Assembly (NCBI GenBank): GCA_015180985.1
Contig: CP054185.1
Coordinates: forward strand, 2,169,225-2,233,224
DNA from: Flammeovirgaceae bacterium
GTDB taxonomy: Bacteria; Bacteroidota; Bacteroidia; Cytophagales; Cyclobacteriaceae
Reading direction: 5' to 3'
Length of the DNA: 64,000 nucleotides
A program made the position numbers and the translations under genes. The notes beneath the pieces are model-generated. The model saw nothing but the letters and a program-made list of their open reading frames with translations. It ran no database searches and was not told the origin of the DNA. Within the stretch, counting starts at the first letter, position 1, and the number at the start of each line of letters is the position of its first letter. Positions 25,531 to 32,675 of the stretch are shown one piece after another.

Positions 25531-26400
25531 TTATCCGACCTTGAATGAGGTCATCGACACGGAACCCATAACCGTTTTATCGTTAAAGAAGGAAATGCTA
25601 TCCGTTTCGTCCTTCAGGCCAAGGATATAAATCATGGGTAAATAATGATCGGGAGTAGGAATAGCAAGTTGGGCAGCCTTGCCCAGCGACTCGTACCGGA
25701 GCAGCGGCTGATGGCTGTTTCGTTGAATGAAGTCCTTAAATTTTTCATTGGCTTCAATGGCCCAGTCGAACCCCGCATCAGGCAGGTTCCAGTTCATGAT
25801 GCGCAGGTTATGTACCATGTTGCCGCTACCAATGATGAGTACACCCTTTTTTCTGAGTTCACTTATTTCACGAGCCAGTTCGTAATGATATTCCGGTGGT
25901 TTGCTGGAATCAATACTCAACTGGAATACCGGTATTGTTGCTTCGGGGTACATCTGCCGCACCACCGACCAGGTGCCGTGGTCAAGTCCCCATTCATGAT
26001 CAAGCCCAACGGTTGTTTTTGTTACCCGGTTTGCGGTATGCCTGGCCAGTTCCGGACTGCCCGGGGCAGGATACTGAACATCGAACAGGGCTTTCGGAAA
26101 ACCATAAAAGTCATGGATTGTTTTTGGTTTTTCCATAGCCGTAACCCACGTACCCTTTGTGTACCAGTGTGCCGAAATGCAGAGCACGGCTTGTGGTGCA
26201 GGAATTTCTTTTCCGATAGCGGCCCAGCCCCGGCTGAACTCATTGTCTTCAATGCCGTTCATCGGTGAACCATGACCGATAAACAGCAGGGGCATGGTTG
26301 TGTTTTCTTTGTAAAGTTTGTCAGTATATTTTTTCAGATCGTTTAGTGTGGCCATGCCCAATAATGAGGTTAACAGGTTAAGAAACTCAATCCGGTTCAT
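25531..26400 (-). CDS. ygiD: 4,5-DOPA dioxygenase extradiol-like protein (YgiD/LigB family)
   Basis: 289 aa, class III extradiol ring-cleavage dioxygenase fold. Metal-site candidates are visible: GHGSPMN near residue 43 (His), SAHWYTKG near 80 (His), GLDHEWGLDHGTWS near 135 (His residues) and GSGNMVHNLR near 195 (His). These match the zinc/iron-binding pattern of DODA-type enzymes such as E. coli YgiD. The physiological substrate in bacteria is uncertain. Monocistronic; a tRNA operon diverges from its upstream side. Confidence 0.92.
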   Translation of the reverse strand: MNRIEFLNLLTSLLGMATLNDLKKYTDKLYKENTTMPLLFIGHGSPMNGIEDNEFSRGWAAIGKEIPAPQAVLCISAHWYTKGTWVTAMEKPKTIHDFYGFPKALFDVQYPAPGSPELARHTANRVTKTTVGLDHEWGLDHGTWSVVRQMYPEATIPVFQLSIDSSKPPEYHYELAREISELRKKGVLIIGSGNMVHNLRIMNWNLPDAGFDWAIEANEKFKDFIQRNSHQPLLRYESLGKAAQLAIPTPDHYLPMIYILGLKDETDSISFFNDKTVMGSVSMTSFKVG

Positions 26401-26467
26401 TTTCAGGTTAAACAGGCGCTGTCAGGCCAAAGTTCATGATGTCATTCGGTAGAATGTTGTTAACCCT

Positions 26468-26475
26468 TATATTTG
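26468..26475 (+). promoter_or_regulatory. Promoter -7 box for the tRNA cluster
   Basis: TATATTTG fits the Bacteroidota TAnnTTTG consensus and lies 26 nt before the mature tRNA-Ser 5' end. The -33 element is weak (TTCG at 26445-26448, spacing 19). Position and match support a promoter for the three-tRNA transcript. Confidence 0.65.
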
Positions 26476-26501
26476 CAATTCTTTAAGCGGTTTATTCATC
26501 C

Positions 26502-26591
<90 letters not shown>

Positions 26592-26614
26592 AGGGTTTTT
26601 TATGACCCTTTTTT
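26592..26614 (+). terminator. Terminator-like hairpin after tRNA-Ser
   Basis: Short stem AGGGT/ACCCT followed by TTTTTTCT directly after tRNA-Ser. It may terminate or attenuate transcription before the intron-containing tRNA-Arg; no separate promoter box was seen for the latter, so partial readthrough is likely. Confidence 0.55.
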
Positions 26615-26660
26615 CTTTGACATAATGGTCCCGTAGCTCAATGGATAGAGCAACTGCCTT

Positions 26661-27298
26661 TAAGGATGGAGCCTCTTGTCAGAAACAAAATGACGGGAGT
26701 GGATGGCGCTGTTTCGGTGAACCCTTCGCGGGCTGCATGGCAACACCGAGGAAATTTCTGGTTTTCTTTATTTTTAATTTATGAAGAATCATCATACCAA
26801 AAGTAAAGGAGACCTGGGAGTGTTAAAGGCGCAAGCTGATTTATGTGCCAAGGGATTTTTAGTGTGTCTTGCCACTATCGGAGCATGCACCTTTTGATCT
26901 GGTGGCATATAAACAGGGGGTTTTTAAACGAGTTCAGGTTAAAGCACGGACAATCAAGAAAGGAAGAATTGACGTTAGATTTGAACACTCATATGCTGAC
27001 AGCCGGGGTGTTCATACGAAACGTGTAAATTTTAATGAATTTGATCTTTATTGTGTTTATTGTCTGGATAATGATACCTGTTATTATTTTAACCCCAGGT
27101 ATTTCTCAAAAAATATCTTCCTCAGTTTGCGGGTAGATCCTCCCAAGAATAATCAGAACCGGTTAGTTAACTGGGCCGATGATTATCGGGAAGTTCCGTA
27201 GAGACTATACGCGTCACACCTGAAATGGTGAAGATATAGTCCAGACCCCAAATCCTTTATTTTTAAAAAAAGGAGCGATGAAAATCGTAGTTGGTATG
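26661..27298 (+). ncRNA. Group I self-splicing intron in tRNA-Arg
   Basis: About 638 nt. Exon 1 ends in U and the intron ends in G, as the family requires. P1 can form from exon CTT (26658-26660) with GAG (26669-26671), giving the U.G pair at the splice site. P2 is a 9-bp hairpin, 26673-26681 with 26691-26699. P5 is CGGTG/CACCG (26715-26719, 26744-26748). P7 is GACTATA/TATAGTC (27203-27209, 27235-27241), including the hallmark AAGATATAGTCC. P8 is CACC/GGTG. P9 hairpins follow, one being CGAT-GAAA-ATCG with a GNRA loop. The insertion point matches that of cyanobacterial tRNA-Leu(UAA) introns. An endonuclease reading frame occupies the region between P5 and P7. Subgroup not assigned. Confidence 0.9.
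26781..27201 (+). pseudogene. Frameshifted PD-(D/E)xK homing endonuclease in the intron
   Basis: Reading from ATG 26781 gives KSKGDLGVLKAQADLCAKGFLV, then the frame breaks near 26863-26871. The +1 frame continues with LPLSEHAPFDLVAYKQGVFKRVQVKAR and runs to the TAG at 27199-27201, about 140 codons together. The join matches the group I intron endonuclease type typified by I-Ssp6803I (PDDEXK_5): N-terminal KGdxGE-like helix, P-x-E, central FDL aspartate, and QVK as the QxK variant of the active site. One extra base, for example the C at 26868, explains the break. In addition the expected glutamate of the GE motif is Val14 (GTG). The enzyme is probably dead; a sequencing error could explain the shift but not the substitution. 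Confidence 0.8.
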
Positions 27299-27357
27299 CT
27301 AAGCAGTAGGTTGCTGGTTCGACCCCAGCCGGGATCGCATAAAGATTGAAATGGATT

Positions 27358-27398
27358 GGAGTGCAGGTTTATATTTCTAATTTTGCACTCCTTTATTT
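27358..27398 (+). terminator. Hairpin between tRNA-Arg and tRNA-Pro
   Basis: Perfect 8-bp stem GGAGTGCA/TGCACTCC (27358-27365, 27384-27391) with an 18-nt loop, followed by TTTATTTTC. It could be a weak terminator or a processing structure. The T-run is broken and the loop is long, so readthrough into tRNA-Pro is expected. Confidence 0.5.
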
Positions 27399-27399
27399 T

Positions 27400-27473
27400 C
27401 GGGGTGTAGCGAAGCCCGGTATCGCGCTTGGTTTGGGACCAAGAGATCGTCAGTTCGAATCTGGCCACCCCGA
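27400..27473 (+). tRNA. tRNA-Pro (anticodon UGG)
   Basis: Acceptor CGGGGTG pairs with CACCCCG (27466-27472), discriminator A27473. The anticodon stem CTTGG/CCAAG encloses TTTGGGA, giving anticodon UGG. The T arm carries GTTCGAAT. The sequence continues CATTG, so CCA is not encoded. kdsC starts 25 nt downstream. Confidence 0.95.
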
Positions 27474-27497
27474 CATTGTTAACCTTATTTTGTTTCG

Positions 27498-28037
27498 TTG
27501 AAACAGATTCTTGAGCGCTACACAAAAGACCAGGTAAAAAAGGCCGCGCAGGTTAAAGCAATTTTTTTTGATGTGGACGGTGTGCTTACCGATGGGAAAA
27601 TCATTTACGATGACAGCGGCCGCGAAATCAAGGAATTCAATGTTAAAGATGGCCTTATCATCAGCCACCTGAAAAAAGCAGGCATTATTGCAGGGGCGAT
27701 TTCGGGCAGGGAGAGTGCGGCTGTTTCTAAACGTTGTGCCGAATTAAATCTTGATTTCTGCCATCAGGGTATACTGGATAAAGGATCGGTCTGCGAAAAA
27801 CTGATGGCGCATTTTAAACTCAAAGCAAAACAGGTTGCCTTTATTGGTGATGACATTAATGATCTGCCGGTTTTTAAGAAAGTAGGCTTTCCCGTTTGCC
27901 CGGCCGATGCCATGTTTTACCTTCATAACCGGGTCGCTTTGGTTACCTTTGCAAAAGGAGGCAAGGGTGTGCTGCGCGAAGTGGCTGATCTTGTACTGGC
28001 AGCCAAAGGTCAACTTAAAAGTTTGAACATAAAATGA
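27498..28037 (+). CDS. kdsC: 3-deoxy-D-manno-octulosonate-8-phosphate phosphatase
   Basis: HAD-superfamily phosphatase (179 aa) that dephosphorylates Kdo-8-P in Kdo synthesis for the lipid A core. The nucleophile motif [10 protein letters not shown] lies near residue 25. Motif II (GAISGRES, with the Ser) is near 67, Lys-containing segments follow, and the acidic motif [10 protein letters not shown] is near 117. There is no ATG in frame between the preceding stop (TAA at 27480) and the catalytic motif, so the start must be the TTG at 27498. It lies 25 nt after tRNA-Pro and overlaps kdsA by 4 nt, so it is probably read from the tRNA promoter or from one hidden in the tRNA region. Confidence 0.93.
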
Positions 28038-32306: not shown

Positions 32307-32675
32307 ATGAAAAGCTTTAGAGATTTAGAAATTTATCGGGAGTCGAAGAGACTGGCTATTGAGGTACATAAACTTTCCATACAACTTCCAAAGTTTGAGT
32401 TATACGAAGAAGGGAGTCAAATAAGGAGGTCTTCAAAGGCTGTAACTTCAGCAATAGTCGAAGGATATGGAAGGAGACGATATAAGTCGGACTACATCAA
32501 GCATCTAATCTATGCTCAATCAGAGTGTGATGAAACAATCATTCATCTGGATTTTTTATTAGAAACCGAATCACTAAACGATCAGAAGTTATATAAAAAA
32601 CTGACTGAGGAATACCAGGTTTTGAGTAAGAAGATAAATAAGTTTATTCAATGGGTTGAGAACAACATGGAATAG
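32307..32675 (+). CDS. Four-helix-bundle protein (S23 / rRNA-intervening-sequence family)
   Basis: 122 aa and entirely helical in appearance. It carries the family pattern: [23 protein letters not shown] at the N-terminus, then [30 protein letters not shown] with the conserved QIRRSS...I.EGYGR block, and a third/fourth-helix [16 protein letters not shown]. Family members occur inside rRNA intervening sequences in some bacteria and as lone genes in Bacteroidota; relatives of the fold (bAvd) bind nucleic acid in diversity-generating retroelements. Function here is unknown. It interrupts the cysD-cysN pair, is flanked by GGTTACCGG-type tracts, and looks more AT-rich than its neighbours, suggesting later insertion (inference). 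Confidence 0.88.

Follow-up and report, generated by a model that had tools for sequence, protein, structure and literature searches.

A group I intron carrying a frame-broken homing endonuclease gene in the tRNA-Arg(UCU) gene of a Flammeovirgaceae bacterium, and endonuclease relatives linked to the same tRNA

A tRNA gene within the 64,000-nucleotide stretch of DNA analysed here (the window) is interrupted in its anticodon loop by an insert far longer than the tRNA itself, which raises the question of what the insert is, whether the split gene can still supply the cell with its tRNA, and how such an insert came to lie in that tRNA. A preliminary description of the window had named the insert a group I intron in tRNA-Arg(UCU), with the break between nucleotides 34 and 35. 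That identification was upheld by the coordinates and length of the insert (638 nt), the cloverleaf formed by the exons, the match to a covariance model and the covariation presented below. On the content of the insert the description was right about the intron and had overlooked an endonuclease gene which fills most of it.

The interrupted tRNA-Arg(UCU) gene and its intron

The tRNA-Arg(UCU) gene occupies positions 26627-27337 of the window, in a source genome of 3.38 Mb assembled as a single contig, and is interrupted 3' of U34 by the insert at 26661-27298. The gene and its neighbours are as follows.

26502..26591, + strand: tRNA-Ser(GCT), next gene upstream (arrangement shared by L056 and L057)
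26627..26660, + strand: tRNA-Arg(UCU) 5' exon, through U34 (read from the sequence; query positions 1-38 match uninterrupted Arg(UCU) genes in relatives)
26661..27298, + strand: group I intron, 638 nt, last base G (exon/intron reading; same insert in G006 and G033)
27299..27337, + strand: tRNA-Arg(UCU) 3' exon, C35 onward (read from the sequence)
27400..27474, + strand: tRNA-Pro(TGG), next gene downstream (arrangement shared by L056 and L057)

When the two exons were joined, ARAGORN returned a tRNA-Arg(tct) cloverleaf. The intron mode of the same program recovered the same 638-nt insert with its border one base off and called the gene Ser(gct). This reading was discarded, since its border violates the group I rule that a U precedes the intron and a G ends it; it is this rule that sets the border and makes the split gene UCU. 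With default settings ARAGORN did not detect the split gene in the window, nor those in L056 and L057. The same base of tRNA-Arg(UCU) holds an intron in the relatives G006 (85% identity) and G033 (71%), both of which keep the order tRNA-Ser(GCT), tRNA-Arg(UCU), tRNA-Pro(TGG). In the congeners G005 and G014 the Arg(UCU) gene is uninterrupted and again flanked by genes for Ser(GCT) and Pro(UGG) in the same order, and therefore the empty site is present within the genus.

The pairing elements of the intron were read in an alignment of 42 introns and are listed here with the evidence for each.

26658..26660, + strand: P1 exon strand CUU, pairing with GAG at 26669-26671 with a U34-G wobble at the 5' site (invariant in the 42 introns, exon CTT having formed part of the pattern that selected them)
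26673..26699, + strand: P2 hairpin, 26673-26681 with 26691-26699 (changes on both sides in 9 of 9 pairs)
26705..26709, + strand: P3 5' strand, partner 27211-27215 (changes on both sides in 4 of 5 pairs)
26715..26748, + strand: P4, 26715-26719 with 26744-26748, P5 lying between (99% paired; changes on both sides in 1 of 5 pairs)
26750..26753, + strand: P6 5' strand, partner 27194-27197, the loop containing the endonuclease gene (near-invariant, covariation uninformative either way)
27203..27241, + strand: P7, 27203-27207 with 27237-27241, enclosing the P3 3' strand (27211-27215) and P8 (covariation, leave-out model)
within 27203..27241, + strand: P8, 27217-27220 with 27227-27230 (covariation, leave-out model)
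27276..27287, + strand: P9-region hairpin with GAAA loop (changes on both sides in 4 of 4 pairs)

Changes on both sides were also seen in this alignment at 2 of 5 P7 pairs and 3 of 4 P8 pairs, and the window's own pairs are standard throughout P1-P4, P6-P8 and the P9-region hairpin. The U-G wobble at the 5' splice site together with the terminal G (27298), and the covariation-supported P3/P7 pseudoknotted core with P8 and P9, are the features of a group I intron. Among 39 introns, 9 of the 13 pairs in P7, P8 and the P9-region hairpin had changed on both sides, and 99.8% of the cells in these elements were paired compared with 85.6% after shuffling (0 of 500 shuffles as high); when the pairing was slid it fell to 19-43%. 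The covariation set did not contain L084, L100, L136 and L140, which were not supplied, L079, L083, L095 and L107, which lacked the exon pattern, or L099, for which the 3' site had been wrongly picked; alignment A4 additionally left out the near copies L077, L090 and L091. The hallmarks given in the preliminary description (the U before the 5' site, the terminal G, P1 CTT/GAG, P2, P7, P8 and the GNRA-capped P9 hairpin, its loop being GAAA) are all in the sequence. P5, also named there, fared less well: as drawn in the present alignment it is 41% paired and probably in the wrong register, and it is not claimed here.

A covariance model of the 3' domain (R2) was trained without the window, L067 and L068, and gave a single match in the 64-kb window (111 bits, E 2.9e-26); because the model had been made without these sequences, this match argues that the intron is not a chance resemblance. 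The general Rfam model for group I introns (RF00028, Intron_gpI), which the preliminary description had proposed as a check, does not detect the intron, real as it is: it gave no match in 26300-27700 at E<=1, nor at the locus in a search across the source genome. At its gathering score it matched none of 16 relatives, and these negative results count against the group I reading. The ORF-less intron of L072, the one relative run at a low RF00028 threshold, was matched end to end (positions 1-253) with 33.4 bits and E 6.5e-7, the gathering score being 50. From its sequence and pairing the insert is confirmed as a group I intron in tRNA-Arg(UCU), and by its likeness to the Azoarcus and tRNA-Leu introns we presume that it belongs to subgroup IC3.

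A DNA search of the source genome for Arg(UCU) returned this gene alone, and a pattern search of the same genome for an intact CTTCTAA tRNA, run without a positive control, gave no match. The 38 tRNA matches of the genome included Arg(CCG), Arg(CCT) and Arg(ACG) and no Arg(UCU), in a list that is possibly incomplete as 150 of 192 candidates were scored. A second intact Arg(UCU) gene together with an absence of splicing had been named beforehand as the sign that the split copy was a pseudogene; since these searches found none, the split copy is very likely the functional gene, and splicing of the intron would probably be essential for life, with no other AGA-reading tRNA found. The alternative is a dead tRNA gene in which the insert has lost splicing and AGA is read by another tRNA. 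Decay of this sort would sit well with the broken endonuclease frame described below, but the intron's pairs remain standard, the exons still form a cloverleaf, the order of the tRNA genes is retained in two relatives and the genome search disclosed no substitute, and we give the alternative very little credence.

The endonuclease gene in the P6 loop

Most of the insert is taken up by a PD-(D/E)XK homing endonuclease gene of the I-Ssp6803I kind (PF11645), which lies in the P6 loop as two pieces.

26781..26897, + strand: endonuclease N-terminal piece, stop at 26895-26897 (PF11645 profile positions 1-26, 16.2 bits, below the cut-off of 26.1)
26869..27201, + strand: endonuclease C-terminal piece in another frame (PF11645 profile positions 27-137, E 4.6e-25, 88.7 bits, cut-off 26.1)

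The pieces are in different frames, with a frameshift near 26866, and the gene cannot be read as a single frame; the TAG stop of the C-terminal piece falls between P6 and P7. A PF11645 match was found in 7 of 295 genomes of the window's own family, in five of them inside an Arg(UCU) intron (G000, G006, G033, G108 and G190).

The endonuclease frames of the relatives L002 and L003 are uninterrupted. The endonucleases of G006 and L067 are identical, and comparison of the window copy with that of L067 gave a dN/dS of 0.064 over 110 codons with dS near 1. Because this ratio is low, the frameshift would be recent or else an assembly error. A sequencing or assembly error, which would leave the window's intron still mobile, accords with the whole frames in L002 and L003 and with strong constraint on the frame until very recently. 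However, long frames nearby in the window appear intact, and in a further relative (G108) the PF11645 match is likewise split in two, so breakage does occur; an error is a possibility of some weight, which we nonetheless rate as the less probable one. The frameshift is thus probably a genuine, recent change.

Residues E34, H35, D39, Q52, V53 and K54, among others, are invariant in 45 endonuclease sequences. D39, Q52 and K54 align with the D and QVK of I-Ssp6803I (PDB 2OST), giving the D...Q-x-K motif, and we take these three to be the catalytic residues. As 2OST was not a significant match in a sequence-only search of the PDB (E 0.23), a fold search was run. The intact L003 homologue was modelled with AlphaFold from the 45-row alignment (pLDDT 91.1), and the top PDB match of this model was 2OST (E 2.2e-10, TM 0.75). 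The endonuclease is thus predicted to have the restriction-endonuclease-like fold seen in 2OST, the model being that of the L003 protein as the window copy is frame-broken.

We are highly confident in the overall reading of the locus: a group I intron after U34 of the sole Arg(UCU) gene found, with a frameshifted PD-(D/E)XK gene in its P6 loop, predicted to splice and not to move by itself. Following transcription the intron would excise itself through two guanosine-started transesterifications, in which P1 would place the U34-G pair in the active site, P7 would bind the guanosine and the terminal G would close the intron, leaving a mature tRNA that reads AGA. An intact endonuclease would cleave, within the anticodon, those Arg(UCU) genes that lack the intron, and repair would copy the intron into them. 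With the endonuclease frameshifted, the intron should still splice and would no longer move on its own.

Endonuclease relatives inside and beside tRNA-Arg(UCU)

Relatives of the endonuclease were collected as the best 80 of 100 loci from an 84,980-species collection and as 21 loci from IMG/VR. A script found the endonuclease within an Arg(UCU) intron at 40 of these best 80 genome loci, next to a split Arg(UCU) gene at 4 and next to an intact one at 30, with 6 unscored; the viral loci comprised 1 inside an intron, 19 beside an intact Arg(UCU) gene and 1 unscored. Linkage to Arg(UCU) therefore amounts to 74 of the best 80 genome loci and 20 of the 21 viral loci, counts that cover near relatives of the query, chosen by likeness to an Arg-intron endonuclease, rather than the whole of PF11645, and that are not independent of each other as they include many near copies (Mycolicibacterium, phage contigs). 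The four loci beside a split gene are from Bacillota (L072, L075, L078 and L109) and have an ORF-less intron with an adjoining free-standing endonuclease. The 30 beside an intact gene are 28 from Actinomycetota, of which 27 appear in the tree below, together with L096 and L116. L166 was scored as lying beside Arg(UCU) at a distance of 462 nt with other tRNAs between. Among the unscored genome loci L079 lacks the 5' exon, L083 lacks the 3' exon, L084 and L140 are at contig edges, L136 contains Ns, and L080 adjoins a tRNA with the loop CTTCTAA that ARAGORN called Pyl (the viral L148 is the same record); none of the unscored loci indicates a different tRNA.

A PF11645-type match was present in 13 phage records, of which two were examined, the other 11 being at 27-32% identity. 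The endonuclease gene directly follows a tRNA-Arg of unstated anticodon in Synechococcus phage Sf-FR1 and tRNA-Arg(tct) in Acinetobacter phage Herod. A second model of the intron 3' domain (R1), built on Arg introns, which is a caveat to what it finds, matched 9 of 12 source genomes tried, with no match in those of L096, L111 and L112. The two Mycobacteriaceae genomes in this test gave no match to R1.

A tree of the endonucleases was built from 91 sequences and 138 columns, with several long branches, and leaves out 11 of the 101 loci, namely fragments at contig ends, near copies and a sequence containing a stop. On this tree, with architecture labels set by hand before a scripted count, the state of lying inside an intron changes at least nine times, six of the changes being forced by well-supported branches, and none of 500 shuffles gave a count as low. 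L096, beside an intact gene, is a neighbour of L092, inside an intron, and the four Bacillota genes standing beside split tRNAs are intermixed with Bacillota genes inside introns. The ORF-less intron of L109 contains 29 nt that match the endonuclease of the L108 intron (score 46, 0 of 200 shuffles as high). A remnant of this sort was clear in this one of the four ORF-less Bacillota introns, matches in L072, L075 and L078 being unconvincing. Because the L109 intron appears to retain an endonuclease remnant next to a free-standing gene, it would follow that an internal endonuclease has been lost at least once while another stands outside the intron.

As a separate observation, many of the tRNAs beside free-standing endonucleases have odd D-arms or anticodon loops; no control set was compared, and we note this as a lead on tRNA resistance.

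In eight phage contigs (L149-L152, L155, L157, L160 and L162) a cassette of tRNA-Arg(UCU) plus endonuclease is preceded by the 5' half of a second tRNA, which ends in TTCT (CTTCT in five), and followed by a tRNA 3' half beginning AAG. In L160 and L162 the two halves agree (acceptor 7/7, anticodon stem 5/5), and these two contigs differ from each other in a compensated manner, ACTGC/GCAGT versus ATTGC/GCAAT. L149, with its near copies L150 and L151, has an acceptor of 7/7 and an anticodon stem of 3/5; the acceptors of L152 and L157 do not fit (3/7), and L155 resembles L152. By these pairings two of the contigs appear clean, three decayed and three rearranged. The corresponding empty site is frequent in viral contigs (at least 120 matches), some of which can be aligned with the flanking sequences of L160 and L162. 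The cassettes break the tRNA at 35/36 or 36/37 and the introns at 34/35, all at the anticodon, a pattern that fits a short staggered cut there. Because some of the phage cassettes interrupt another tRNA-Arg in its anticodon, they point to the anticodon of tRNA-Arg as the candidate cut site of the endonuclease.

The proximity to tRNA-Arg(UCU) could in principle reflect common descent of one intron with the endonuclease as its passenger, and both the near copies among the loci and the manner in which the relatives were chosen lend something to such a view. Against it, in Actinomycetota and in phages such as Herod the gene adjoins an uninterrupted tRNA-Arg(UCU), R1 matched nothing in either of the two Mycobacteriaceae genomes searched, and the endonuclease tree calls for repeated changes of state, although its columns are few and some branches long. 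We consider passenger status highly improbable. We lean, with somewhat better than even confidence, towards a PD-(D/E)XK branch specialised on the tRNA-Arg(UCU) anticodon in at least seven groups (Bacteroidota, Rhodothermota, Gammaproteobacteria, Bacillota, Acidobacteriota, Actinomycetota and phages). Such a branch would have switched repeatedly among several states: free-standing by an intact tRNA, free-standing by a split tRNA, inside an intron, reduced to a remnant, or in a phage cassette whose replacement tRNA-Arg breaks the resident one.

Host tRNAs, known systems and significance

The preliminary description had held a UCU host to be uncommon in Bacteroidota and had proposed a shared origin with tRNA-Leu introns followed by a switch of host. 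Among 395 sampled Bacteroidota genomes R1, applied with strict filters, gave 39 matches in 27, with Arg(UCU) as host for 12 (in 12 genomes), Arg(UCG) for 1, Lys(UUU) for 8, Leu(UAA) for 8 and Met(CAU) for 10, the Met(CAU) host being tentative as it depends on the 3' exon reading and ARAGORN agreed in 1 of 3 tried. In view of the 12 Arg(UCU) genomes, and of Arg-TCT introns already in print (PMC4853749), the first of these statements does not stand.

The 5' end of the window's intron is of the tRNA-Leu-intron type, as had been said, with a 5' exon ending in CUU and a GAG guide (the Leu side of this comparison is partly from general knowledge). A 5' exon end of CTT is common to the Arg and Lys hosts and to those Leu hosts for which the script located the 34/35 split (L311, L316, L327 and L328); in the remaining Leu loci (L306, L308, L315 and L319) this split was not recovered by the script. 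Because this CUU end is common to Arg(UCU), Arg(UCG), Lys(UUU) and at least 4 of the 8 Leu(UAA) hosts, it suggests a simple rule for host switching, namely among tRNAs with C32-U33-U34.

A tree of the intron 3' domain was built from 71 rows and 106 columns; it has many open forks, its Leu rows are from Bacteroidota only, and L136, L079 and L083 were omitted. In this tree a separate group (98/90) unites the Leu with the Met introns. It also includes the viral L176 and a single Arg(UCU) intron (L303), whose genome carries a Leu(UAA) intron as well. The intron of Arg(UCG) falls among the Arg introns, as do those of Lys(UUU), which are on a long branch. Host switching among tRNA introns is thus likely from these placements. 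A short-pattern search for cyanobacterial Leu introns in viral contigs gave at least 120 mixed matches, and two (L222 and L176) of the 20 loci run against R1 matched it. For the window's own lineage, a recent arrival from a cyanobacterial-type tRNA-Leu(UAA) intron draws on the common 34/35 site and CUU/GAG pairing, on the presence of Leu(UAA) introns in Bacteroidota and on the position of L303; yet the window's intron groups with the endonuclease-type Arg introns, apart from the Leu and Met group, within the limits of 106 columns and Bacteroidota Leu rows. We judge a recent Leu origin to be improbable, and the host switch proposed for this lineage is not borne out. We retain the placement of the window's intron with the Arg introns.

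Several known systems resemble this locus in part. The tRNA-Leu(UAA) introns of cyanobacteria and plastids are inserted at 34/35 with a CUU/GAG P1, as in the window; they differ in host, and those of Bacteroidota form the separate group above. The introns of Azoarcus tRNA-Ile(CAU) and Agrobacterium tRNA-Arg(CCU) are small, belong to subgroup IC3 and have core letters similar to the window's; unlike it, they are inserted after the third anticodon base and are not known to carry an endonuclease. Collaborative homing, in which a free-standing endonuclease sits beside an intron-bearing gene, was reportedly described by Bonocora and Shub and by Zeng in 2009. The known cases are reportedly from phages. 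The four Bacillota loci are similar in combining an ORF-less intron with an adjoining free-standing endonuclease; they differ in being in bacterial genomes and, for L109, in an intron that retains a remnant of an internal endonuclease since lost. The homing endonuclease SegB of phage T4 lies in a phage tRNA cluster and is of the GIY-YIG type; the branch described here shares the association with phage tRNA genes and is instead PD-(D/E)XK and tied to Arg(UCU).

Arg-TCT introns of Beggiatoa and Thiomargarita have been published as putative group I introns, the tRNA being missing from the annotated genes (passages of PMC4853749). Thiomargarita nelsonii thus shares the host tRNA with the window, whereas its Arg gene spans 324 bp, with an insert of ORF-less size, and the organism belongs to Gammaproteobacteria; the passages of that paper assign the intron no determined structure or type and describe no endonuclease (PMC4853749). 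The tRNA-fMet intron of Synechocystis is alike in size (655 nt), in being group I and in encoding the 150-aa PD-(D/E)XK enzyme I-Ssp6803I, with the same predicted fold as here, and differs in host tRNA and in the low sequence similarity of its endonuclease to the window's at the E value of 0.23 given above (sections of PMC1995217; 2OST). In huge (Jug) phages 80 PDDEXK_5 genes, of the same Pfam family, are named homing endonucleases and are mostly stand-alone; the term tRNA-Arg is absent from that text, and its passages describe no link to a tRNA (PMC12393476). Members of PF11645 are also listed in phage-defence systems (PMC10952713), and single PF11645/PDDEXK_5 genes are given for a cyanophage (PMC10286775) and a marine virus (PMC10564846). 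In the portions of these four papers at hand PF11645/PDDEXK_5 is not tied to tRNA-Arg, and to judge from the stand-alone phage genes (PMC12393476) and the defence systems (PMC10952713) the family as a whole is broader than tRNA introns. Excerpts of PMC3984707 and PMC3943268 contain no case of an Arg(UCU) intron. The group I intron database of PMC11835236, as its excerpt states, starts from Rfam hits and GenBank annotation, and because of this the window's kind of intron may be thin in it. A literature search over titles and the starts of abstracts, in which subscription journals are thinly covered, returned no such endonuclease in or beside tRNA-Arg(UCU), which is weak evidence of novelty. The single locus adds to a known kind, and the newer part is the endonuclease branch, held to one tRNA in several architectures.

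If these readings are correct, genome annotations may miss an essential tRNA at such introns, since default ARAGORN (in the window, L056 and L057) and RF00028 at its gathering score (16 of 16 loci tried) fail on them, and Arg-TCT has been reported as absent from annotation (PMC4853749). With several arrangements of endonuclease and intron on one target, the order from beside, to inside, to decay becomes testable, and candidate organisms for the order of events are Exiguobacterium, Cytobacillus, Neobacillus and Fredinandcohnia, together with the phages Sf-FR1 and Herod. The branch would provide a natural, partly cellular series of homing endonucleases joining and leaving introns, and the phage cassettes would be homing elements that replace tRNA genes. 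Endonuclease relatives in and beside one tRNA across phyla and phages could show how selfish cutting genes team up with introns.

tRNA-Arg genes and the endonuclease in phages and Actinomycetota

Cassettes consisting of a tRNA-Arg(UCU) gene and a PF11645 homing endonuclease gene were found inserted in the anticodon of a second tRNA-Arg gene in eight phage contigs. A 9-nt inverted repeat, AGAACAACC / GGTTGTTCT, was present in all eight of these loci and flanked the cassette tRNA in three of them (L149, L152, L160). On a separate viral contig, L222 (6624-6734), another split tRNA-Arg(UCU) gene was observed, the intron of which measured 606 nt by script.

In Actinomycetota, tRNA-Arg(UCU) genes adjoining a free-standing endonuclease of the same type had the anticodon loop TTTCTAC together with an unusual D-arm in 12 listed loci, and tRNAs with these two features are possibly a cut-resistant form.

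Loci with tRNA-Arg(UCU) and the endonuclease
Phage cassettes: L149, L150, L151, L152, L155, L157, L160, L162
TTTCTAC anticodon loop, Actinomycetota: L111, L115, L119-L121, L127, L129, L133, L134, L139, L142, L146

Additional features of the window and its genome

Elsewhere in the genome that contains the window, locus L055 has a pair of tRNA-Ile(GAU)-like genes that are odd and score low; they are separated by approximately 1.36 kb and lie in near-identical surroundings. Within the window, a frame of 122 aa, which we take to resemble the four-helix S23 type, was flanked by cysD-like and cysN-like reading frames.

G000:C1:3052813-3052889 and 3054170-3054247: tRNA-Ile(GAU)-like genes
window 32307-32675: 122-aa frame

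Host tRNAs of related introns

Group I introns interrupted tRNA-Lys(UUU) between nucleotides 34 and 35 in eight loci of Bacteroidota family f56 and were also found in putative tRNA-Met(CAU) genes of Bacteroidota, where host identity was taken from the 3' exon only. In a tree of intron 3' domains the Lys introns (five of the eight loci included) were placed on a long branch amid the Arg introns, and the Met introns (three rows included) clustered with those of tRNA-Leu(UAA).

Intron loci in other tRNA genes
tRNA-Lys(UUU): L302, L304, L305, L307, L309, L310, L312, L314
putative tRNA-Met(CAU): L313, L317, L318, L320-L326

An endonuclease-bearing intron at L297 1350-1700, which fell within the Arg group, had tRNA-Arg(UCG) as its host instead of tRNA-Arg(UCU). 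Two Ectothiorhodospiraceae MAG loci (L079, L083) retained intron and endonuclease with one tRNA exon absent or cut, a loss which is due either to decay or to an assembly fault. In a single Bacteroidota genome, G677, tRNA-Leu(UAA) was interrupted by an intron (L319) and tRNA-Arg(UCU) by one of Leu type (L303), a pair that likely reflects an independent host switch.
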